This document shows, one piece after another, positions 10,645-24,720 of a DNA stretch of 28,535 nucleotides. The stretch is taken from the IMG/VR virus record IMGVR_UViG_3300050016_000199, positions 1 through 28,535 of that record; one strand, written 5' to 3'. The notes below the pieces were generated by a model. The model was given only the letters and a program-made list of their open reading frames with translations. It was not told where the DNA came from and made no database searches. Within the stretch, counting starts at the first letter, position 1. Each line of letters opens with the position of its first letter. The DNA comes from a virus. The translations under genes were made by a program, and so were the position numbers.

Positions 10645-11126
10645 TAAATGAGTCTGACAGGGTGACTCGGCGAAGTTAAGATATTTGTTTCCCCTGCTGG
10701 CCCGAAACTGGTCACGTGGATCGCGTGAGCAGCCGCATTCACAGGCACAGTAAAAGTGAGTGGCGATTTGGCTCCTGACGCCACTTGCGTCGGCTGCCCT
10801 CCTGCCCGCTTCAAATAGACGGAGGCGCCTTGAAAGTATGGACTATTGCTCGGATGCGTAAACTGAATCGTGACCGTTTTCTGACCCGCGATGGCTTTCC
10901 GCGTCACAACCCGCACATTAGTCACAGCGGGAGGTGTCGTGCGCGGCGCAACGACCGCAGTCGCGGGCTGTGTGGTCGGCAGAGCAAACACTGCTTGCGG
11001 GCGCGCGGTTACCTTGGTTTGCTCAATCTGCTGAGATTTCTGCCTGTCGGCAGGCCAAATCACAGGAGAAATTGTATTTGCTCCTGGGTGGACAACTGCG
11101 CGGATGATTTCAGCTTCTTTGTTCAT
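10644..11126 (-). CDS. Putative virion protein with Ig/fibronectin-like domain (160 aa)
   Basis: Residues 1-65 are Pro/Thr/Ala-rich and probably a linker. Residues 66-158 look like a single beta-sandwich: TNVRVVTRKAIAGQKTVTIQ, then FQGASVYLKRAGGQPTQVA, then a final strand set ending HVTSFGPAGETN. This resembles fibronectin type III or Ig-like domains used as virion decorations. ATG 11126 is preceded by AAGGA and overlaps the stop of the GIY-YIG gene (ATGA), so it is probably translated from the GIY-YIG gene's transcript. Confidence 0.5.
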   Translation of the reverse strand: MNKEAEIIRAVVHPGANTISPVIWPADRQKSQQIEQTKVTARPQAVFALPTTQPATAVVAPRTTPPAVTNVRVVTRKAIAGQKTVTIQFTHPSNSPYFQGASVYLKRAGGQPTQVASGAKSPLTFTVPVNAAAHAIHVTSFGPAGETNILTSPSHPVRLI

Positions 11127-11881
11127 GATTTTTCCTTCGATCTGCGAGCCTGTTGTGCATCCCTCATTCGCTGACGCGTTTCAAGACTCTTCGGGTGCTT
11201 CATTTTTTGCTTTGCTTCGTTCGAATGCTTGAACCCCGCATTGGATGCTTTGCGTTTTTCTATCGTCTCCTGAGACTGCTTGCGCCCTACGTTCCAGTTA
11301 TTCCCGAGGTTATAAACTAGACCCCGACGACTTTCGCCGCTCTTTCGGTAAACCTCTGCAGGAAGGATTCTCCCTTTAAGCGTTTGACTCACTCGCCGAC
11401 GAAACTCTTCGGATTTCGGGTAATGATTCCCTTTATTCCCCGCCCCGCGAGAGTTCCCAACCATAAAAACTTTCGCATGCTCGCTTATCTTCCTTCGTCG
11501 CTCTGCTTCGACTTCGGGATCACGATTTAGAATAGTGTCTTTGAGTTTCTGTTTTGACTCATCTGAATGAGGACCCGTAAACCCCTCACCGCCGTCGCAG
11601 ATGTTGTAACCAACGTCAGGGTGTTGCGCCTTCAGTACCCGAATGAAGTGGCGCTCCATTTCGTCCAGTTCGGCGCGAGTCGCGACATCGGAAACCAGCG
11701 AGTGAATACTCCACGATTCTTTTGAGTACTTTCGCATCGCCGCGAACAGGTGTGACCGAGTCCCAGAGTTATGGCACGCGTTAGATTGCTTCGTCTGCAA
11801 ATACTTTTGCAGGTTCGTGCCTTTATGCTGACCGACATAAATCTTCAGTGTTTCCGAGTTGACTATCACGTAGATGAACAT
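11123..11881 (-). CDS. GIY-YIG homing endonuclease with NUMOD3-like repeats, copy 1 (252 aa)
   Basis: The N-terminal GIY-YIG nuclease domain opens MFIYVIV and continues with KIYVGQHKG. It includes the conserved Arg in TRSHLFAAMRKY and the likely catalytic Glu in the helix around LDEMERHFIRVL, and ends with GYNICDGGEGFTG. Downstream are NUMOD3-type DNA-binding repeats (HSDESKQKL, SEEFRRRVSQ, HSNEAKQKM and similar). Start 11881 is chosen because GGAGG lies 5 bases upstream; an ATG four codons earlier lacks one. The gene has its own palindromic copy of the late motif and is coupled to the structural gene downstream. It is closely related to the gene at 19297. Confidence 0.85.
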   Translation of the reverse strand: MFIYVIVNSETLKIYVGQHKGTNLQKYLQTKQSNACHNSGTRSHLFAAMRKYSKESWSIHSLVSDVATRAELDEMERHFIRVLKAQHPDVGYNICDGGEGFTGPHSDESKQKLKDTILNRDPEVEAERRRKISEHAKVFMVGNSRGAGNKGNHYPKSEEFRRRVSQTLKGRILPAEVYRKSGESRRGLVYNLGNNWNVGRKQSQETIEKRKASNAGFKHSNEAKQKMKHPKSLETRQRMRDAQQARRSKEKS

Positions 11882-11895
11882 CGCGACCTCCATCT

Positions 11896-11925: not shown

Positions 11926-14900
11926 TCAAACACTTTGATCTTCACCGAACGCCAGCGCCTTAATTGTCGACGGCGCGTTTTCTGGCTCGAATCGGACGCG
12001 GCACTGCATGTGATGAATATACTGACTCATCTGTGTACTATTTACCATCGAGACATTCCACCTCAACGCCAAAATAGATGAAGACGGATTGTTTTGGCCG
12101 ATAGGCGGCTCCTGCACAATCTCAGGCAAATAGACAAACGGCACGGGAGTTGTAGGCGACGTTTCGTTGGGCAAAATCCAAATATCAGGGAAACTAGGTC
12201 CGCCATGATTGAGCGTGCCGACTGCATCAAAATATCCAATCACATGTTGCAACGGGAACAATCGCCCGCCCAGAGGCGACAGAGTTATCGAACCGATCAC
12301 GATTTCGCACAAAGCATATGGGGTGCCATCATTCGCCCCAAGCGACGTATTACCATCACCCCACGACTGTAAATCTCTTGAGTAAATATAGTTTCCCTGG
12401 TCCAATTGAGCCTGGGTGTTGCCTGTCGAGATAATTTCGGCGGTAGAGATTGTCACTGCGCCAGAACTTCCGCCGAGCCCCGCCAAGGCGATCCCGTTAA
12501 AAGTGCCGCCGCCCAGCGTGATAGAAATCTGCGCCAAGATTGTTCCCACCATCATCGAAGAAGCAACGGATGTGAAAGAACTCCCGACCACCCAAATGAC
12601 ATTGCTTGCGAGAGCGCCGTTAATAAGTGCGATGGTCGAGCCGCCTTCGAGGGTAGTCGTCGACGCAGCGAAAAACACAAACTGGGCGTTCGCATTTCCT
12701 TGCGCGTCCAGAACGATGCCGCCGAACGTGTTCGGGATATCGAAACTGGATGTCGAGCTATAGTTTCCAGCAAGGTATGTGTGGCTGTTTGCGCCGTTCC
12801 CGCTTGTCGCCAAATTCACAGCCGTCCCGAGCGAGGTGAATGTCAACCCCGCATAGTGCGCGTATGCCGCGACCGCTGCCGTATGCGCTGCTGCGGCGTT
12901 GGTGTTGTCGATAATCCCAGGGGACATAATCACGCCTGGAGGAAATCCTGTAATGGTTGTGGTCGGGCTCGAACCGATGTTGCCGCCCGTAATCACGGTG
13001 CTGCCTGTGTTGGTAATTCCGCTCCACGCCAAAAGGGCATAGGTAGCTGCAACCCCTAATTGCGGATTTGATGGACGCACCCCGCCCGTGGGCGTCGCTA
13101 ACAGTAAACTGTAAATTCCAACCGATGTCTCTACCGATTTCAACGCGCCCACTCCAAATAATGGGAACGCAGGAACGCTCCATGACGGGACGTTGGGCCC
13201 GTAGCGCAAAATGCGGTCTATGCCGTTGCTGATGAATAAACCCACATCGGTTCCGTCACGGTGCAGTGTGACATACGCTTTGGCGGGATTGACGTTCGTC
13301 GCCAAGTAATCCGAAATGTGTAGCCCGACATCTTCTTTCTGCGCGCCCAGCAATTCAAAGTACTGCTTCTGCGTGGTAAACAAACCAATAATCGAGCCGT
13401 CGCGGAAGACAGCGTTCGTACTGGAAACGCCGAAGTTGCTCAAAAAATCTGTAGCGTAGAAGCTGATAGTCTCAGGTCCGCCGAGAATTGCTTGCACGCG
13501 GTCGGCCAAGAAAACAAGCATCCCGATGCCGTCCGCAGTTGGCTGCAGATTCAGCACAGGTCCTGAGAACTTGAATCGATTCCCAGGAGCCCACGCTTCC
13601 TCGGGAATACCGTTCGTGCAATCTGGTCCTGAATCGAAATACACATAGTTTCCGTCAACCATCCAGAGCCGTCCCTGCCAGTATACGCTGATAGTACCTA
13701 CAGGTTTGCCCAGCGGCGGAATGGATGAACCAGGTGCGCCAGGAGGCGGGTCGTTCTGATGGAACAATGGAGCAATCAAAAGAATATCCAGATCAGGATC
13801 GATGACAAAGTCGTCGAAGGTCCACTGAATTCCTGCGCCTGGGTTCGTGACCGCGCCATCAAACAAATAGGTTCCGCCGCCATCCGACAGACGATATATT
13901 TCCACCGCGTTGAATGTAGCTGTGCCTCCGTCGAGCGTCTGCACCGAGTCGGAGGTCGTAAAAAAGATTTGGAACCATGTGTTCTGAGTTCCGAGCGACT
14001 GATCTACCGCGATGACTTGGAATTGCTGACCGTTCAGAAACGTCGCGGTAGTCAAGCCGCCGAGAGTGACCCAGATGCCAGGCTGGAAGTTATTGCTGGC
14101 GAAAATCGTTAGGATGTTCGCGGTCACCGAGAACCCTGTGATAGTCGCAACGGAATTGCACAACGGAAATCCCTGGCCGTCTAGCAAAGATGTGCCCTGG
14201 CCCGTGATGGTTGAGATAAGCGGAGCCGCAGTACCAGAATCCGAAGTCAATGGTACAAACACACCGCCGTTGTTGAAAGTCGCAGTCCAGCTTCCGTTCA
14301 GGAGCACGGTGCCTGTCGTGGCGGTCGGGCCGTAGTTTCCCGCTGGAGGACTGGTCCCTGTCACTTCGAACTGCGTACCGCTCAATCCTGTCGCCGACAC
14401 GATCAGTGTCAACCCGTTCAGCCATGTTGCGCTCGGGTCCGTCAAGTTACTGAATGTCACGCTCTGTCCTGCGACTAAAAGATTGATGGCTTTGACGGTT
14501 AGAGTAGTACCGCCGCTGATTTGCGTCGAGGTCAAAGGAAAGCTGGAGGACGGCTGCGCGGTCAGGACAGTAAATATTTGGTTGTTAAAATAAGTGCCTG
14601 TCGTCAACCCCTCGACCGTAAAGATGTTCCCAGGGATAAAGTTGTTGCTGCCGAAAAACGTCGCGACGTTCGCAGTAATGGAGAACGACTGAATGCTGCC
14701 GTTCAGTGGTCCGAGAATCGCGCCAGTGTTGTTGCTGAATGGGCTGGCTGTTGTCAGGTGCCCGTACACCGTTCGGAAAGCGTAGACGTACGCATATCCG
14801 AAACTCGCGAGCGGAGAACCTTGCCCGAGGTTGGTCCAGGTGTAGCTGCCGTCCTGGGTCGTGATGCTGCCCAACAGCGGGTTGGCGTTTGTATTCCATA

Positions 14901-17016
14901 CTGGAGCGATGGCTCCTGTGACGGCGGGATTCGACGCCACCGCCCAATATGGAGTTGTTGTCGTCCCCCCAACCAGGACCGTATAATTACTGCTCGGCGC
15001 AACACCTGTATTGGTTCCCGCCAACACGCTGATCCAAAAACCCCCACCGAAAGAAACAATCTGCCCGACAGTATATCCAGTTGCCGCATTCCACGGCTGT
15101 ACAGGACTTGTGGCGGTAACCGCGCGCTGCAAATTTCCGTTCGTGTCCAACACCACGACAGGCACTGGATAATTTGTTTGCGGATACCAGACTTCGACAG
15201 GACCGTAATTTGTCCATTGAATTCCGCCGTCGTTGACGATGCCGCCGATAGATGTAGGCCAAATTGGTTCGGTCGGCCCAGTGAACCCAGGGCCCGTGCC
15301 TGCGGGCAGGTGATAATAAACCCGCATGATAGTTCCGACTGGCGGGCTTACTCCCACAAGGACCGTTGCGCTCCCGACAGATTTGAGGGCGACGGTGATC
15401 CCCATGGTGCCTGTGCTCCATGACGGGTTAAATGAGCCCGTTGCTCCTGGCGCAAAAAATGCCGCAGACGTTTTCTGAGTTCCGCTCGCGGCGAAAAATG
15501 ACTGATTGCTGCCGAGGGTGTATCCTGCGGGGATGGAACCGCTGACGTTCCCCCCGTACACATATGAAAAAAGCAAATCAGTGGCGTGCGTGATCGCCAC
15601 ATTGCCTGAAAGAAAGGGTGCTGATGTTGGTCCGCCGTTCGAGCCCGTCGTTTCCACGGGTGATACTGCCACAATCCCGCGAAATTCATGAGCGTTGATG
15701 CTGGTGAAACTGTTAGAGTGAAGTTGATGCACCGTCACCGTAATGGTGGTCGCGCCCGCCACCGCGTTGGATGCCACATAGACGTAATGGGCGTGTAGAC
15801 CGCCATCAAACACGCTGGCCGCGAGCACGTAGGTGTTCCCGCGATTATCCGTGACCGCCGTGATAATTTCATCGAAAGTGTGAACCCCGACAATCAACGT
15901 ATTACCTGCGGCGACTGGATTCGGAAAGGGGTAAACTACCGTCGCGGCGTTCTCTGTATTCGCCGTCCCGCTCTGCACCAAGTTAAATCCCGTCGTGTTA
16001 GAAATATTCGCTGAGATAGCGAAACCGAAACCACCAGAGCCAGGTGCATTCACCTGCGCGGGGGTCAAGGTTAGTCCCCACATAATGGTAGGGCCGCCAT
16101 ATACCTGCGTTGCAAATGCTGTCGTGCTCCACGGCGGCGGTTCGGCAAGGTTCGAACCCACCGCAACCCCGCCTACAACCAGTTGTACGGCGTGGTCGTT
16201 CGCGACACCGCTGCTGACCGTTTTCGGCACAATGACCTGGACGCCGTCGATAATCGCCGCTGAAGGAATATTCAGGTTGAAGTCGTACATCTGTAAATAG
16301 GTGGTGAATGCAGGAGACGCGAGCGTCAAGGAAACCGTACCGCCCGAGGCGCTCACCCAGGTTCCGACACCGCCTGCCAGCGGCAAATTCGTAAAAGAGT
16401 TCGGAGATTCCACGCTGCCGTTTGGAATCAGAATCGCGGAGACGGCTTCGATGTTTCCGTTCGGGTCCTGAATAGGGTCATTGATATCGAAAAACTCACG
16501 CGGATACCAGAATCCCATGCCCGTTGAAGTCGGTGTGAACGTCGGCGCCGCGAGCCCAAACGATGAGACGTTTGTCCCGTCATACTTTGCGTAGTCTTGA
16601 GGCGCGCCGTCCGAGAAATATGTCATATTGCCGAGCGTTGAGATGTACCCCTGCGCGATGGTGGTTTTCGGGACAACCGTCACCACACCTGTCGGAGTAA
16701 ACGACGCCAGCCTAGCGGTGGAATCGAAGTAATCGATGACGTTTCCGTCCAAATTCCTGAAGAAATAAAACTGGTTGATGATTTCCGTCGACGGTAAGAG
16801 TGTCGGGCAATATCGAGAGAACCCAGGGCGACGCTGCCATTCATACTTGTCAGTGTTCTCCATGTTCGCGCCGTCAATCACTGGGTCGTGGTATGACACG
16901 ACGTTGACGCCGATAGGTTTGAAGGGCGCAAACAGTTGTGAGCGGAAGGTATAGAATCCTGTGAGAAAGAATTCTATCGCCAATGCGGGATCGGATTGGG
17001 ATATCTTGCGCGCCAT
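11926..17016 (-). CDS. Giant tail nozzle-like protein with inserted beta-domains including a DUF3494 ice-binding-like domain (1696 aa)
   Basis: The N-terminus (NVVSYHDPVIDGANMENTDK then WQRRPGFSRY) and the beta-propeller-like region at about residues 1090-1310 (SVYWQGRLWMVDGNYVYFDS, then GLFTTQKQYFELLGAQ) match nozzle proteins of podoviruses (T7 gp12 / P22 gp10 type). Those are about 470-800 residues, so this one is greatly enlarged. Inserted modules, in order: a jelly-roll-like domain at about 352-552; segments containing GIQWTNYG and SYTWTNLG; three SNNFxPG/LTTxTFxNG beta repeats between about 775 and 1003; and a DUF3494 domain at about 1320-1531. The body resumes with YIYSRDLQSWGDG. ATG at 17016, 25 bases below motif copy 4. 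The insertions probably face outward on the tail. Confidence 0.7.
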   Translation of the reverse strand: MARKISQSDPALAIEFFLTGFYTFRSQLFAPFKPIGVNVVSYHDPVIDGANMENTDKYEWQRRPGFSRYCPTLLPSTEIINQFYFFRNLDGNVIDYFDSTARLASFTPTGVVTVVPKTTIAQGYISTLGNMTYFSDGAPQDYAKYDGTNVSSFGLAAPTFTPTSTGMGFWYPREFFDINDPIQDPNGNIEAVSAILIPNGSVESPNSFTNLPLAGGVGTWVSASGGTVSLTLASPAFTTYLQMYDFNLNIPSAAIIDGVQVIVPKTVSSGVANDHAVQLVVGGVAVGSNLAEPPPWSTTAFATQVYGGPTIMWGLTLTPAQVNAPGSGGFGFAISANISNTTGFNLVQSGTANTENAATVVYPFPNPVAAGNTLIVGVHTFDEIITAVTDNRGNTYVLAASVFDGGLHAHYVYVASNAVAGATTITVTVHQLHSNSFTSINAHEFRGIVAVSPVETTGSNGGPTSAPFLSGNVAITHATDLLFSYVYGGNVSGSIPAGYTLGSNQSFFAASGTQKTSAAFFAPGATGSFNPSWSTGTMGITVALKSVGSATVLVGVSPPVGTIMRVYYHLPAGTGPGFTGPTEPIWPTSIGGIVNDGGIQWTNYGPVEVWYPQTNYPVPVVVLDTNGNLQRAVTATSPVQPWNAATGYTVGQIVSFGGGFWISVLAGTNTGVAPSSNYTVLVGGTTTTPYWAVASNPAVTGAIAPVWNTNANPLLGSITTQDGSYTWTNLGQGSPLASFGYAYVYAFRTVYGHLTTASPFSNNTGAILGPLNGSIQSFSITANVATFFGSNNFIPGNIFTVEGLTTGTYFNNQIFTVLTAQPSSSFPLTSTQISGGTTLTVKAINLLVAGQSVTFSNLTDPSATWLNGLTLIVSATGLSGTQFEVTGTSPPAGNYGPTATTGTVLLNGSWTATFNNGGVFVPLTSDSGTAAPLISTITGQGTSLLDGQGFPLCNSVATITGFSVTANILTIFASNNFQPGIWVTLGGLTTATFLNGQQFQVIAVDQSLGTQNTWFQIFFTTSDSVQTLDGGTATFNAVEIYRLSDGGGTYLFDGAVTNPGAGIQWTFDDFVIDPDLDILLIAPLFHQNDPPPGAPGSSIPPLGKPVGTISVYWQGRLWMVDGNYVYFDSGPDCTNGIPEEAWAPGNRFKFSGPVLNLQPTADGIGMLVFLADRVQAILGGPETISFYATDFLSNFGVSSTNAVFRDGSIIGLFTTQKQYFELLGAQKEDVGLHISDYLATNVNPAKAYVTLHRDGTDVGLFISNGIDRILRYGPNVPSWSVPAFPLFGVGALKSVETSVGIYSLLLATPTGGVRPSNPQLGVAATYALLAWSGITNTGSTVITGGNIGSSPTTTITGFPPGVIMSPGIIDNTNAAAAHTAAVAAYAHYAGLTFTSLGTAVNLATSGNGANSHTYLAGNYSSTSSFDIPNTFGGIVLDAQGNANAQFVFFAASTTTLEGGSTIALINGALASNVIWVVGSSFTSVASSMMVGTILAQISITLGGGTFNGIALAGLGGSSGAVTISTAEIISTGNTQAQLDQGNYIYSRDLQSWGDGNTSLGANDGTPYALCEIVIGSITLSPLGGRLFPLQHVIGYFDAVGTLNHGGPSFPDIWILPNETSPTTPVPFVYLPEIVQEPPIGQNNPSSSILALRWNVSMVNSTQMSQYIHHMQCRVRFEPENAPSTIKALAFGEDQSV
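12424..13059 (-). other. Encoded DUF3494 (ice-binding-like) domain within the nozzle-like protein
   Basis: Residues about 1320-1531 of the 1696-residue protein show the DUF3494 signature: an opening LGVAATYALLAWSGITNTG, then ITGGNIGS, then a GIVLDAQGNANAQFVF strand. It continues with LINGALASNVIWVVGSS, MVGTILAQISITLGGGTFNG and a closing GAVTISTAEI. The fold in characterised members is a beta-solenoid with an alongside helix that binds ice. Confidence 0.85.
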
Positions 17017-19294: not shown

Positions 19295-19314
19295 ACTTAT
19301 GGAACAAAAAGTCT
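19295..19314 (-). promoter_or_regulatory. Late promoter/operator motif copy 5
   Basis: AGACTT-N7-CATAAGT, 21 bases upstream of the tail-fibre GTG. The stop codon (TAA) of GIY-YIG copy 2 lies inside the CATAAGT block, so the end of that gene is coded by the promoter-like motif. Confidence 0.8.
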
Positions 19315-19986
19315 TATCTTCGCCTGTCGCGCACGCTGCGATGCTGCCATTTTGGCTTTCGTTTCCGCAGAAGCGGGTTTACGATGCGCATCTGCGTTCT
19401 TTCGTTTCGTTTCTTCGGAGTGCTGTCGCCCGAAGAATGGGTTATCTGCGCCAACTTGCTGCCCTTTATGAGCGGCGGACATTTTCTGAAGAGCCTGCAC
19501 AGAATGTTTTTTTCCTGTGTTGGCGGCGCGTATCCGCTCAACTGCTTCGGCGGTATGCTTAAACTTTTTACCTCTCTCTGATGACTGTTGCCGATGCGCT
19601 GCTGCGGATGGACCGCCCGCTGCATAATACGCCTTCATAGCAACACTGTGCTTGTTCTTCGTTTCGTCCGACGCAGGTCCAGTAAACCCCTCGCCACCTC
19701 GGCAGATATTGTAGCCGACTTCAGAATTCTGAGTGTTCAACGCACGGATGAAGTGCTTCTCCATCTCATCCAGGGCTTGTCGTGTCTCGACCCCCTGCAC
19801 CAGCGGATGAATACTCCACGCATCGCTCGGATGCATTCGCATTGCGCCGAACAGGTGCGACCTGCCTCCCCTGCGGTGCTTGGCGTCCGACAATTTGGTC
19901 TGCAGGTACTTTTGCAAACTATTACCTTTATGCTGCCCGATGTAAATCTTCAAAGTCTCACTGCAAACGATGACGTAGATGAACAT
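19297..19986 (-). CDS. GIY-YIG homing endonuclease with NUMOD3-like repeats, copy 2 (229 aa)
   Basis: It opens MFIYVIVCSETLKIYIGQHKG, nearly identical to copy 1, with the same conserved Arg segment (RSHLFGAMRMH), the Glu-containing helix (LDEMEKHFIRAL) and the closing GYNICRGGEGFTGP. The C-terminal half contains NUMOD3-type repeats (HTAEAVERIRAANTGKKHS, HSEETKRKNADAHRK, SAETKAKMAASQ). Start 19986 is chosen because GGAGG lies 6 bases upstream; a start four codons earlier has none. Its last codons run through the promoter-like motif of the tail-fibre gene. It sits between the adaptor-like gene and the tail fibre as an independent unit. Confidence 0.85.
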   Translation of the reverse strand: MFIYVIVCSETLKIYIGQHKGNSLQKYLQTKLSDAKHRRGGRSHLFGAMRMHPSDAWSIHPLVQGVETRQALDEMEKHFIRALNTQNSEVGYNICRGGEGFTGPASDETKNKHSVAMKAYYAAGGPSAAAHRQQSSERGKKFKHTAEAVERIRAANTGKKHSVQALQKMSAAHKGQQVGADNPFFGRQHSEETKRKNADAHRKPASAETKAKMAASQRARQAKIRLFVP

Positions 19987-19998
19987 GATACCCTCCAC

Positions 19999-20030: not shown

Positions 20031-21428
20031 TCACATTAAAGTTCTTAAAGGTGTTATAGCCATAATGTTATCTTCGCGGTCTTCGGCGGCGAGGACAGAC
20101 TGCAGCGCCATCATCGCAACCTGCATCTGCGCCTGCGTTTCCGTCGACGTGATTCCGTACGCGAACCGCATCCCCTGCCACAACAGCAACTCGAACAGCG
20201 CGAACGAATAATCATCAGGCCACTGGAACACACTTTGCCCGCTCGTGAACTTCGGAGATTTCGCTTGATACACAATATTGAACGCGAACGGATATGTGCT
20301 GACGGGCTGCGAGAGTCTGAACTTCACGACGCCGTTGCCAAAATCAATCTCGCATGAGACGTTTAGTTCGTCCCCTGTCGAAGTGTATTCAGGCGCAATC
20401 CGATGCACCGCATCTACTGGGGTGACGGGCAGAGGGAAACTTCGGTTGTTGATGTCGACGACGGCGCCTGATTCAACCCAGCCAAGATTCCAAATCCCAG
20501 GCGCGCCTGAAGGAGCCGCGAAAATCGTTCCTGTGTCGCCGCCGTTGATTATGACGACCCCAGACGGGGTCAAAAACGTCACTGCGGTGGCCGTGGCCGT
20601 CAGCAGGATCACAGATAAGGTATTGAGCCCAGAATTCGTCGTGATGCCTGTGAATGTCATGATATCGCCAGGTGTCATGGTCTGCGCGACTTGAACCGTC
20701 GTCACACCACCTGCCGCCGAGATATTGGTGATGCCCCCCGAGTGGGCGGGTGTTCCCTGCAGCACGATATGAAAGCGGTCAGGGATAGAGATGATCGTAT
20801 AGAAATCTTCCCAGTGACTGGTTTGGGTTAGCTGATTATATTCGAATGTGCTGTTGTACGCGGGATTCACGACGCCAGAAATCAAAACTTCGGATGTACC
20901 GATGTTGCCGTCGCGGAATGGATGCGGGTCCAGAAACTGTACAGTAAAAGTGCCAGCAACAGGATCGAAGATAATCCCCGCCGTTTGCCAGTTATTGATC
21001 GGCCCATAGGAGTTTCCTCCATTGAACGTCCCGTAACGAATGCGCGCGTTCCCGTTTGCGTAGACGCCTGGGTTCAGGTCGACGCCCGCGCCGCCCGCAG
21101 GAAGTTGACCGCCTGGGGTCGTGCTGTTGATAAGCGTGAAGCAGGATGCGCCAGCGAACTTGAAATCTTGAAATCCCTGTTGAGTCATGAAAAAATGCGG
21201 GTTCTCGGCGGGGTTGTTGCTGCCGAGGTTCACGCGGTTGAATTTCCAGGGCATGCGCTTCGTCAGAAGCATCTGCTGGACGTTGTCGCACAAACGCAAC
21301 ATCGGCTGACCGTCAATGCCGCCGACGTTGAAAAAATTCTGCAATTTTGTATGAATTTTCAGAGAATCTGCCATTGCCTGAATAGTGGTGGTGGCGTTCA
21401 CATTTGGGGTGAGATTGAAGTTTGGCAT
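20031..21428 (-). CDS. Tail/adaptor-type virion protein (465 aa)
   Basis: The N-terminal helix-rich segment (QPMLRLCDNVQQMLLTKRMP then WKFNRVNLG) and C-terminal helices (FALFELLLWQGMRFAYGI, then MMALQSVLAAEDREDNIMAI) bracket a beta-rich centre. One beta module around residues 235-305 (VTTVQVAQTMTPGDIMTFTG) resembles the short repeats in the nozzle-like protein. Helical ends with a beta insert, and position upstream of fibre and nozzle genes, suggest a tail tube or adaptor protein (T7 gp11-like role). Family membership is not certain. ATG 21428 lies 31 bases inside the end of GIY-YIG copy 3. Confidence 0.5.
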   Translation of the reverse strand: MPNFNLTPNVNATTTIQAMADSLKIHTKLQNFFNVGGIDGQPMLRLCDNVQQMLLTKRMPWKFNRVNLGSNNPAENPHFFMTQQGFQDFKFAGASCFTLINSTTPGGQLPAGGAGVDLNPGVYANGNARIRYGTFNGGNSYGPINNWQTAGIIFDPVAGTFTVQFLDPHPFRDGNIGTSEVLISGVVNPAYNSTFEYNQLTQTSHWEDFYTIISIPDRFHIVLQGTPAHSGGITNISAAGGVTTVQVAQTMTPGDIMTFTGITTNSGLNTLSVILLTATATAVTFLTPSGVVIINGGDTGTIFAAPSGAPGIWNLGWVESGAVVDINNRSFPLPVTPVDAVHRIAPEYTSTGDELNVSCEIDFGNGVVKFRLSQPVSTYPFAFNIVYQAKSPKFTSGQSVFQWPDDYSFALFELLLWQGMRFAYGITSTETQAQMQVAMMALQSVLAAEDREDNIMAITPLRTLM

Positions 21429-21979
21429 TTTAATTCTCTTTTTCGTGCTTCTCTTGCGAACGCTGCGACTCGCATTTTCTGTTTTGCTTCTATTGACCGC
21501 TTTTGTCCGATTCTCGCTGCTGCCCCTTTTGCGATAGCTTCTGGCGAATGCAGCGCAACCAAAACATGCGCGGGACGATGGACCCCTTTATTTTGTCCTT
21601 TGCGTTGCGCTCGCCAGATCTCTCGCGTACTTTCGGACGGCTGAATCCCCTTATTCCAACTCGGGCGACCTTTGTGCCCAACACTCATTCGCCGTTTGGC
21701 GTCTTCCGAGTGGACGAGCCCTGAAACTCCATCTCCACCATCGGTGAAATTCCGAAGGCATCCAGTACCAAGGTCTTTACGTCCGAACAAATCAATCATC
21801 ACTATCTCGGACGCGATGGCCTCTGCTTCGGTCGCTGCAGGAAAAATCAGAATCAGAGACTTATCTTTCGGCGGTCGAAGGTGATGGCTGCCGCGTATGA
21901 ACGCGCGCTTACCTGTCCCCTTGCCGACATATCGCGGCGTCCCATCTTCCCGCATCCAAAGGTATGAGTAGAATTCCAT
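21398..21979 (-). CDS. GIY-YIG homing endonuclease, copy 3 (193 aa)
   Basis: The nuclease domain is recognised from FYSYLW, then GTPRYVGKGTGKRAF, the acidic helix around EAEAIASEIVMIDLFG and LRNFTDGGDGVSGL. NUMOD3-type repeats follow (HSEDAKRRMSVGHKGRPSWNKG, later SIEAKQKMRVAAFAREA). It belongs to a different GIY-YIG branch from copies 1 and 2, with RYVGKGTGKR in place of KIYVGQHKG. ATG 21979 lies 26 bases below motif copy 7. The last 31 bases overlap the adaptor-like gene, consistent with insertion immediately upstream of it. Confidence 0.8.
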   Translation of the reverse strand: MEFYSYLWMREDGTPRYVGKGTGKRAFIRGSHHLRPPKDKSLILIFPAATEAEAIASEIVMIDLFGRKDLGTGCLRNFTDGGDGVSGLVHSEDAKRRMSVGHKGRPSWNKGIQPSESTREIWRAQRKGQNKGVHRPAHVLVALHSPEAIAKGAAARIGQKRSIEAKQKMRVAAFAREARKRELKCQTSISPQM

Positions 21980-22950: not shown

Positions 22951-23499
22951 TTAGTCTTGAAACAGTTCCCACATCTGCGCAACAGGCGTCAGAGGCCCTG
23001 CTGATGTCACGTTCGCATACCGTACGCGAATAAGAGCCGCTTTGCTGAACGAGGTCCATACGACGGTTCCGTCAGTCGTCGTCGCGGCCTTCACGGTGTT
23101 GAAGTTGCTGAATCCAATAAATTTTACTGCGGTCGTTCCGCCCGTCGTGGCTTTGAACAAATACCCGTTCAGAACCGCATACGCGCCAGTTGCCACAACC
23201 ACACCCGACCCAGGGTACACAGGAGCGACACAATCAAGCCCGCCGAAAATAATCCCTGCGGTCTCGGCCAGCCCGTCGGAGTGCATGTAATTGACGGTCT
23301 TGCCGACTTTCCACTGCGCGCCTTCGTTCCCCACCTTCATAAAATAGTCCGCCGTGGCGTTTGCCGCGATAGAGGGGAGCGGGTCTTGCGCGTTCGCACC
23401 GCCGCCGCCTCGCGCATCGGTAGGAAGAATAACGATAGCGAATGCGCCAGGAGCGTTCGAAACATATGCGCGTGTGTTATATCCGATTGATCCAGCCAT
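22951..23499 (-). CDS. Virion (head-fibre/decoration-type) protein, short paralog (182 aa)
   Basis: The sequence is beta-rich: APGAFAIVILPTDARGGGG, then NATADYFMKVGNEGAQWKVG, LDCVAPVYPGSGVVVATGAY, YLFKATTGGTTAVKFIGFSN and TTDGTVVWTSFSKAALIRVR. The last part resembles the short beta module (YLFkATTGGTT...TDGTVvW) found in many phage tail and decoration proteins. It aligns end to end with the protein at 23527-24720 apart from a DUF3494 insertion there, so the two arose by duplication. ATG 23499 has GGGAC upstream. The exact position in the virion is unknown. Confidence 0.6.
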   Translation of the reverse strand: MAGSIGYNTRAYVSNAPGAFAIVILPTDARGGGGANAQDPLPSIAANATADYFMKVGNEGAQWKVGKTVNYMHSDGLAETAGIIFGGLDCVAPVYPGSGVVVATGAYAVLNGYLFKATTGGTTAVKFIGFSNFNTVKAATTTDGTVVWTSFSKAALIRVRYANVTSAGPLTPVAQMWELFQD

Positions 23500-23526
23500 G
23501 GTCTTGTCCCTTTTTGCTCAAACTTT

Positions 23527-24720
23527 TTAGGCTTCCCACAAATCGTATTCTTGTGCAACTGGGGTCGCGGCTGCGATACTCACGTTCGCGAAGCGGATGC
23601 GAACGATAGCCGCCTTGCCGAATGAAGTCCAGACCACCGTTCCGTCAGTTGTAGTCGCACCCTTGACGGTGTTGAACTTGCTGAACCCGATGAATGTTGC
23701 CGCCGTTGTTCCGCCCGTCGTGGCACCGAACAGATATCCGTTCAGAACGATGTACGATGTGGGATTGAAACTGGCTGCCACAACCGTCGCGGTTCCAGGG
23801 TAAACTGGAGCGATGCAGTCAATTCCGTCAATCACGATTCCAGCAGTCTCTGTGGTTCCGTTCGGTCGGGCGAACTTGACCGACTTTTGAACTTTCCACT
23901 GCGAGCCTGTGTTCGCAACGATTGCGACGAAATCTGCCGTGCTGCCTGCGGGCACGAGAGGAAGGGGATTCTGAATTCCTGCGACGAAAGCGCCGCTGGA
24001 TGACGTGACATTCGTCGCCGTCGAGATAGTAACTGCGCCGTTGCCGCTGCCGACCGCCAAAGCGCGACCGACGAGAGTTCCGCCGCCGAGTGTCACGGAT
24101 GTGATGGCCAAGATGTTTCCAACCATATTCGAGGTTGCGACAGTCGTGAGTGAACTGCCAACCAACCAGAACACGTTATCGGCTGTTGCGCCGTTCGTCA
24201 GAGTCACAGATTGACCCGAGGCCAAATTGACTGTGGAGCCTGCCTTGAAAATATACACGCCAGGACCGTTCAATACGATACCTGTGGACATCGTCATCGA
24301 AGAGCCTGCGGAATAGTTGCCTGGGATGTACACGTTGGTGCTGCCGACTCCTGCAGTGCTTAGATCGACAGTCGTTGCGCTCAACGAGACGAAGGTCAAT
24401 GCAGCAAGCGTGGTATACGCTGCCAGCCCAGCCGTGCGAGCCGCCGCAGAGTCCGCGTTGTCGATGAAAGCTGGGGGAACGAGAATCATTCCGCTCAAAG
24501 TTGCGGGAACGGAAGCTGACCCGATGTTGCCGCCGTTGATGACAGATGATCCTGTGTTCGTGATGCCGCTGTATGCGAGCAGGGCATATGCGCCTGCCGA
24601 CCCTAATACCGCAGGTGTGGGAGACGAAGTGCCGAAGTCCGTGGCAAAAATTTCGAAGTACGCGCCAGGCGCGGGCGATCCACGAAAAGATGAAGTGTAT
24701 CCCTTAGAAGAATTCGACAT
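23527..24720 (-). CDS. Virion (head-fibre/decoration-type) protein carrying an inserted DUF3494 domain (397 aa)
   Basis: Residues 1-38 and about 240-397 match the 182-residue paralog at 22951 (shared segments include GSQWKVQKSVKF-type, IDGIDCIAPVYPGTATVVAA, YLFGATTGGTTAATFIGFSK and TTDGTVVWTSFGKAAIVRIR). Residues 39-239 are a DUF3494 ice-binding-like domain (LGSAGAYALLAYSGITNTG to GAVTISTATNV). Start 24720 is used because GGAAA precedes it; the frame stays open to 24762 through a 5' hairpin. The 57-base leader contains that hairpin. First gene of a four-gene unit ending in a terminator. Confidence 0.7.
   Translation of the reverse strand: MSNSSKGYTSSFRGSPAPGAYFEIFATDFGTSSPTPAVLGSAGAYALLAYSGITNTGSSVINGGNIGSASVPATLSGMILVPPAFIDNADSAAARTAGLAAYTTLAALTFVSLSATTVDLSTAGVGSTNVYIPGNYSAGSSMTMSTGIVLNGPGVYIFKAGSTVNLASGQSVTLTNGATADNVFWLVGSSLTTVATSNMVGNILAITSVTLGGGTLVGRALAVGSGNGAVTISTATNVTSSSGAFVAGIQNPLPLVPAGSTADFVAIVANTGSQWKVQKSVKFARPNGTTETAGIVIDGIDCIAPVYPGTATVVAASFNPTSYIVLNGYLFGATTGGTTAATFIGFSKFNTVKGATTTDGTVVWTSFGKAAIVRIRFANVSIAAATPVAQEYDLWEA
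24004..24606 (-). other. Encoded DUF3494 (ice-binding-like) domain inserted in the decoration-type protein
   Basis: Residues 39-239 carry the family landmarks: SGITNTGSSVINGGNIGS, a central GIVLNGPGVYIFKAGSTV, DNVFWLVGSSLTTVATSNMV, GNILAITSVTLGGGTLVGRA and GAVTISTATNV. It is paralogous to the domain at 12424-13059. Confidence 0.85.

Follow-up and report, generated by a model that had tools for sequence, protein, structure and literature searches.

Tandem phage paralogs with and without an inserted DUF3494 domain point to a probable exchangeable display module on a constant scaffold

We examined two adjacent genes in a 28,535-base IMG/VR virus record, hereafter the window. Both lie on the minus strand, with the gene for a long paralog first and that for a short paralog 27 bases after it. 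The genes and their parts are as follows.

22951..23499, minus: short (plain) paralog of the scaffold family we call family A, 182 aa, insertion site empty
23527..24720, minus: long paralog, a family A scaffold with a DUF3494 insert, 397 aa, ATG at 24720
24607..24720, minus: residues 1-38 of the long paralog, the N-terminal part of its scaffold; shuffles and family alignments show its homology to residues 1-36 of the short paralog
23977..24606, minus: DUF3494 insert with its linkers (residues 39-248 of the long paralog), from a PF11999 match (5.3e-25) and the structural model
23530..23976, minus: residues 249-397 of the long paralog, its C-terminal scaffold, approximately 60% identical to the short paralog
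23038..23229, minus: carbohydrate-binding-module-like stretch of the short paralog (residues 91-154), from an AlphaFold2 model and VIA-align

The original prediction described tandem paralogs that are homologous on both sides of a DUF3494 domain present in the larger copy, and our comparisons agree with this description. The approximately 60% identical C-terminal halves align by BLASTP with 92 of 159 residues identical (2e-53), spanning residues 253-410 of the TTG-start form of the long paralog, and the C-terminal scaffold of the long paralog is 77-86% identical between viruses. The N-termini are also homologous, though short. In the window pair alone this homology is marginal (raw score 33, equalled or beaten in 10 of 2000 shuffles), but it is clear in the orthologous pair of record L003 (score 67 versus a shuffle maximum of 43); the long paralog of the window scores 51 against the short paralog of L003, with a shuffle maximum of 50. 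The N-terminal pattern SS-x-GYxSSxRGxxxPGAYxxxxxDFG recurs in other family A members, and where L020 and L021 have the site empty, the DFG/DWG is joined directly to the (I)Q-x-x-LP start of the core. Because the N-termini match across the L003 pair and the wider family, the long paralog is correctly read as an insertion, ordered strap, insert, core. The insert is precise and in frame; its limits, originally placed at residues 39-239, lie nearer 39-248 when the linkers are counted.

The PF11999 (Ice_binding) match in the long paralog reaches 88.8 bits, with a cut-off of 28.7. Our model of this protein, which is only moderate outside the DUF3494 part, has a predicted helix at residues 88-106 and repeated strands, as in a beta-solenoid with a long helix alongside, and its insert resembles ice-binding proteins of known structure (E about 1e-9, target TM up to 0.82). 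The AlphaFold2 model of the plain paralog has a mean pLDDT of 79 and is good except at residues 1-35. A Foldseek search of the PDB with this model gave no match at E 0.001 or better. A separate VIA-align comparison superposes residues 91-154 of the plain core on the Pam1 tailspike's receptor-binding domain (57 residues at rmsd 1.6 A, 25% identity, Z 8.6) and, at Z 4-6, on chitin-binding modules of the CBM5/12 type, for which there was no Pfam match. Among predicted viral structures, Foldseek finds a stretch of about 60 residues of the plain core recurring in tail fibres and baseplate proteins. The family A scaffold has no match in PHROGs or Pfam; by its models, it resembles a short N-terminal strap followed by a C-terminal beta domain with a carbohydrate-binding-module-like fold.

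The DUF3494 domain of the long paralog is, as had been proposed, the second such domain of the window, the other one lying in a 1696-aa protein. The surrounding features are listed below.

11926..17016, minus: virion-type protein of 1696 aa, whose gene order makes it tail-hub-like or nozzle-like, with weak PHROG head/packaging matches
12433..13056, minus: DUF3494 domain at residues 1321-1528 of the 1696-aa protein, PF11999 8.4e-30
20031..21428, minus: adaptor-like protein, the locus anchor, from PF24175 (SU10_adaptor) and matches to gp12 and gp13 of Tunturiibacter phage Tunturi_3
22441..22944, minus: Ser/Thr/Gly-rich low-complexity protein adjoining the pair, present also in L003
25401..25988, minus: syntenic marker, a relative of Tunturi_3 gp10 (phmmer 1.3e-14)
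11123..11893, 19297..19998 and 21398..21979, minus: three ORFs of homing-endonuclease type, of which two match GIY-YIG and NUMOD3

We used the adaptor-like protein as the anchor for finding relatives. Its PF24175 match is under the cut-off in the window (E 0.045), and the profile is found in 4 of 7 family members (best E 5e-4). The L022 and L020 records carry portal, major capsid protein, family A, and adaptor genes in one run. This gene order, together with weak PHROG matches to head closure (4e-4) and head decoration (5e-3) proteins, suggests that the pair proteins are on the particle. The podovirus isolate Tunturi_3 lacks the slot of the pair, and the pair proteins would therefore be accessory. 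The virus is probably a podovirus-like tailed phage, with an Acidobacteriota host and a soil-type habitat suggested only by distant similarity to Tunturi_3. Searches of phage databases returned no annotated phage with the pair, and the sole match to the 1696-aa protein was Tunturi_3. Cellular genomes scanned with the scaffold and with a DUF3494 profile yielded no relative, and PDB profile searches with the 1696-aa family and the adaptor family found nothing. As a separate observation, the homing-endonuclease ORFs of the window adjoin the adaptor and tail genes, and L015, L017, L012, and L022 have more of them in the same module; it is a guess that such genes could promote local gene conversion there.

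We compared family A across 16 viral records, the window included, with relatives taken from IMG/VR. Among the 15 records besides the window, the insertion site is empty in three (L003, L020, L021), holds DUF3494 in four (L003, L004, L008, L025), and holds an unrelated domain of about 130 aa in nine (L010, L019, L022, L024, L050, L052, L053, L054, L058), with L003 counted twice because, like the window, it has both an empty and a DUF3494-bearing copy. The predicted coexistence of a plain and a domain-bearing form is thus seen in the window and again in L003; with these two viruses as the only cases, maintenance of the genes as a pair is thinly sampled. The L004 contig ends inside the long copy and does not cover the neighbouring gene. 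L008 and L025 each carry a DUF3494 copy but no plain one of family A, and in L025 the DUF3494 form of family A adjoins a plain form of a different family, family B. The alternative insert of about 130 aa appears FN3/Ig-like by eye, yet it has no Pfam or PDB sequence match. The L010 record also contains, outside the structural locus, a separate 346-aa gene (L038:1189-2229) with an FN3-like-looking stretch and a divergent DUF3494.

The 1696-aa protein offers a second site of this kind. Its DUF3494 domain, which matches PF11999 with 104.4 bits (cut-off 28.7), sits between YSLLLATPTGG and NYIYSRDLQSW. At this position the relatives L010, L019, L020, L021, and L022 and the isolate Tunturi_3 are empty, L012, L024, and L025 have a domain of about 165 aa, and L008 has a 392-aa stretch. 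DUF3494 occupies it in the window, in the near relative L085, and in three distant records of separate lineages (L095, L107, L129), while L133 carries DUF3494 in an adjacent loop. The DUF3494 domains of this protein family are not one clade (p-AU 1.2e-4; 0.015 without L133). The two DUF3494 domains of the window are approximately 55% identical, and internal copying between the two genes is rejected (both domains with that of L085 as one clade, p-AU 0.024). L085 is a 59,098-base record that starts inside the gene for the 1696-aa protein, in which its DUF3494 is 99% identical to that of the window; it also has portal and capsid genes. Elsewhere in the 1696-aa protein, a stretch of about 210 residues (345-555) is found at the same place in L010 and matches residues 676-877 (2.7e-13) and, weakly, 1312-1505 of the L008 protein. 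This stretch is possibly another mobile domain.

Proteins of the non-homologous family B take the place of the pair in L012, where they form an independent plain/DUF3494 pair.

L012:6577-7458 and L012:7506-9032: tandem family B genes, a plain form of 293 aa and a form of 508 aa with an inserted DUF3494

L011 and L023 have the plain family B copy only. In L015 (3276-4688), a tail-fibre-like protein ends in about 190 residues that constitute a family B domain, and family B may therefore be a fibre-tip-type domain. DUF3494 thus occurs in several non-homologous particle-type proteins, among them the 1696-aa protein and those of families A and B, and some relatives have empty sites. A scan of IMG/VR shows that 34 of 44 distinct DUF3494 ORFs have at least 40 aa of flanking sequence on both sides. 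The viral proteins of L088, L099, and L112 contain two DUF3494 domains apiece.

This arrangement bears on whether the DUF3494 protein could be a secreted, auxiliary metabolic protein that protects the host, as PF11999 genes in Arctic marine vOTUs have been interpreted (PMC11515562). We regard this explanation as very improbable for the window, because the DUF3494 domains here are embedded in scaffolds within a structural module and do not stand alone. The long flanks of most viral DUF3494 ORFs and the N-terminus of the long paralog, MSNSSKGYTSS, in which no hydrophobic signal peptide is apparent by inspection, also speak against secretion.

We compared the history of the scaffold with that of the domain. 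In the scaffold tree, which is rooted by midpoint only, the plain copies of the window and L003 are monophyletic (100/99), and the long paralog of the window groups with L004 (97/92). With the N-terminal columns added, the five DUF3494 copies come out as a single clade whose sister group is the two plain copies, with weak support (67/75 and 71/82). The nine members with the insert of about 130 aa are not one clade (p-AU 0.0013), and the empty L021 is nested beside the insert-bearing L050 (98/95). The scattered inserts and the nested position of L021 indicate that the ancestral site was probably not empty throughout, and loss of the insert at least once, in L021, is well supported by the scaffold sequences.

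The domain tree differs. Among 45 domains, the five DUF3494 domains of family A are not one clade (p-AU 5.5e-5), a result that is retained when long branches are removed (p-AU 0.007; 0.006 also without L004). The family A domain of L008 groups with the DUF3494 of the window's 1696-aa protein (95/86, then 98/91), and that of L025 belongs to a group that includes the DUF3494 of the non-homologous protein in L012 (99/98). With the domains at the family A site belonging to more than one lineage and the scaffold maybe to one, different cassettes entered the same site. Separate acquisition is not needed for every member, since neither the sister relationship of the window and L003 domains (p-AU 0.28, with uneven support in the domain tree) nor a grouping of the window, L003, and L004 is rejected. 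For the window and L004 domains together, p-AU is 0.0575. In 20-residue blocks, the long paralogs of the window and L004 mostly share 70-95% amino acid identity in the scaffold and about 20% in mid-domain, a drop such as recombination within the domain would give.

These histories weigh on the proposal that the genes were duplicated and one copy then gained the domain. Tandem paralogy stands; the direction, a gain, is not established by the scaffold tree, and the loss alternative has a p-AU of 0.28. In its strictest form, with one duplication and a single DUF3494 gain that was inherited ever since with no continuing exchange, the gain history would explain why the five DUF3494 scaffolds form a clade beside the plain copies. 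We consider it quite unlikely, given that the domains themselves are not one clade, that nine relatives hold another domain at the same site, that L021 shows loss, and that L008 and L025 have the DUF3494 copy without a plain family A copy. The converse deserves more weight, although we hold it at somewhat less than even odds: the scaffold already had an insert when it was duplicated, and the plain copy later lost it. Most relatives carry some insert, the empty L021 lies beside the insert-bearing L050, and a duplication younger than the split of L008 and L025, from which loss of DUF3494 from the plain copy would follow, is the alternative that the p-AU of 0.28 leaves unrejected. Against it, the best tree places the plain copies outside the DUF3494 clade, under the same midpoint rooting.

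We favor a reading, to which we assign a probability of about 0.72, in which DUF3494 is an exchangeable display module on a constant scaffold and the pair gives a podovirus-like phage one accessory particle protein, of surface type, in two versions. A permissive loop between strap and core would accept whole folded domains in frame, with DUF3494 being one of at least two cassettes at the family A loop, and another permissive loop in the 1696-aa protein would likewise take DUF3494 or other domains. The scaffold would be inherited while cassettes are exchanged between phages and also between non-homologous proteins. What we observe directly is the architecture, the repeated insertion, and the disagreement between scaffold and domain histories; from these we infer that the proteins are on the particle, exposed at its surface, and adhesive. 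The structural job would stay with the plain copy, and the DUF3494 copy would add a rigid, outward-reaching beta-solenoid that binds a host or environmental polymer, possibly ice; its likely function would be adhesive display. It is plausible that both versions of the subunit occur on one particle.

Ice binding by the domain would itself be an inference from family and fold. That DUF3494 here is a true ice-binding module, attaching particles to ice or protecting them from freezing, strikes us as doubtful: it matches characterised ice-binding proteins in both respects, and Tunturi_3, the closest isolate in which the large protein has a relative, is from Arctic tundra soil (PMC11924767), but the mid-domain sequence is replaced wholesale in L004, and a family name does not equal an activity. 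Equally speculative is a broader picture of soil phages with docking loops, in which sticky domains are swapped across phages and unrelated proteins, plain and decorated subunits set the density of the module, and DUF3494 attaches virions to ice or polymers.

Under the display-module reading, the gene pair becomes part of a series in which states before and after insertion can be compared, as the same residue is empty, holds DUF3494, or holds alternative inserts, in two proteins; the independent family B pair adds a second plain/DUF3494 case in a non-homologous protein. The modular evolution of phage surface proteins thereby becomes directly testable. Viral PF11999 matches need not represent host-protection genes, as most here lie within larger particle-type proteins. 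Our literature search returned no paper naming both DUF3494 and phage.

Several known systems resemble parts of this locus. Characterised DUF3494/PF11999 ice-binding proteins (6eio, 5uyt, 7bwx, 9lhn) share the sequence family and the predicted fold, whereas the domains here lie within phage scaffold proteins with no apparent signal peptide. The PF11999 genes of Arctic marine vOTUs place the same Pfam family in viral genomes, but they are read as host cryoprotection and ours as virion modules. The receptor-binding domain of the cyanophage Pam1 tailspike (7eea) and CBM5/12-type modules superpose on about 57 core residues at 1.6 A, a match that covers only part of the plain core. Tunturi_3 (PP885686) has adaptor-like, gp10-like, and gp19-like proteins in a similar order; it is distant and has neither the slot of the pair nor any DUF3494. 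The closest functional parallel may be the Ig-like, BACON, and PKD domains, which Fraser et al. 2006, as relayed in PMC13370021, describe as promiscuous in phage structural proteins. According to that account, one domain type occurs in unrelated tailed-phage particle proteins, is absent in close relatives, and is thought to be adhesive. In the present proteins, by contrast, fixed internal sites receive entire domains, and a decorated copy may have a plain paralog retained beside it. Because the fold is a DUF3494 beta-solenoid and not an Ig fold, the module would work like the Ig-like display domains without being a member of that group.
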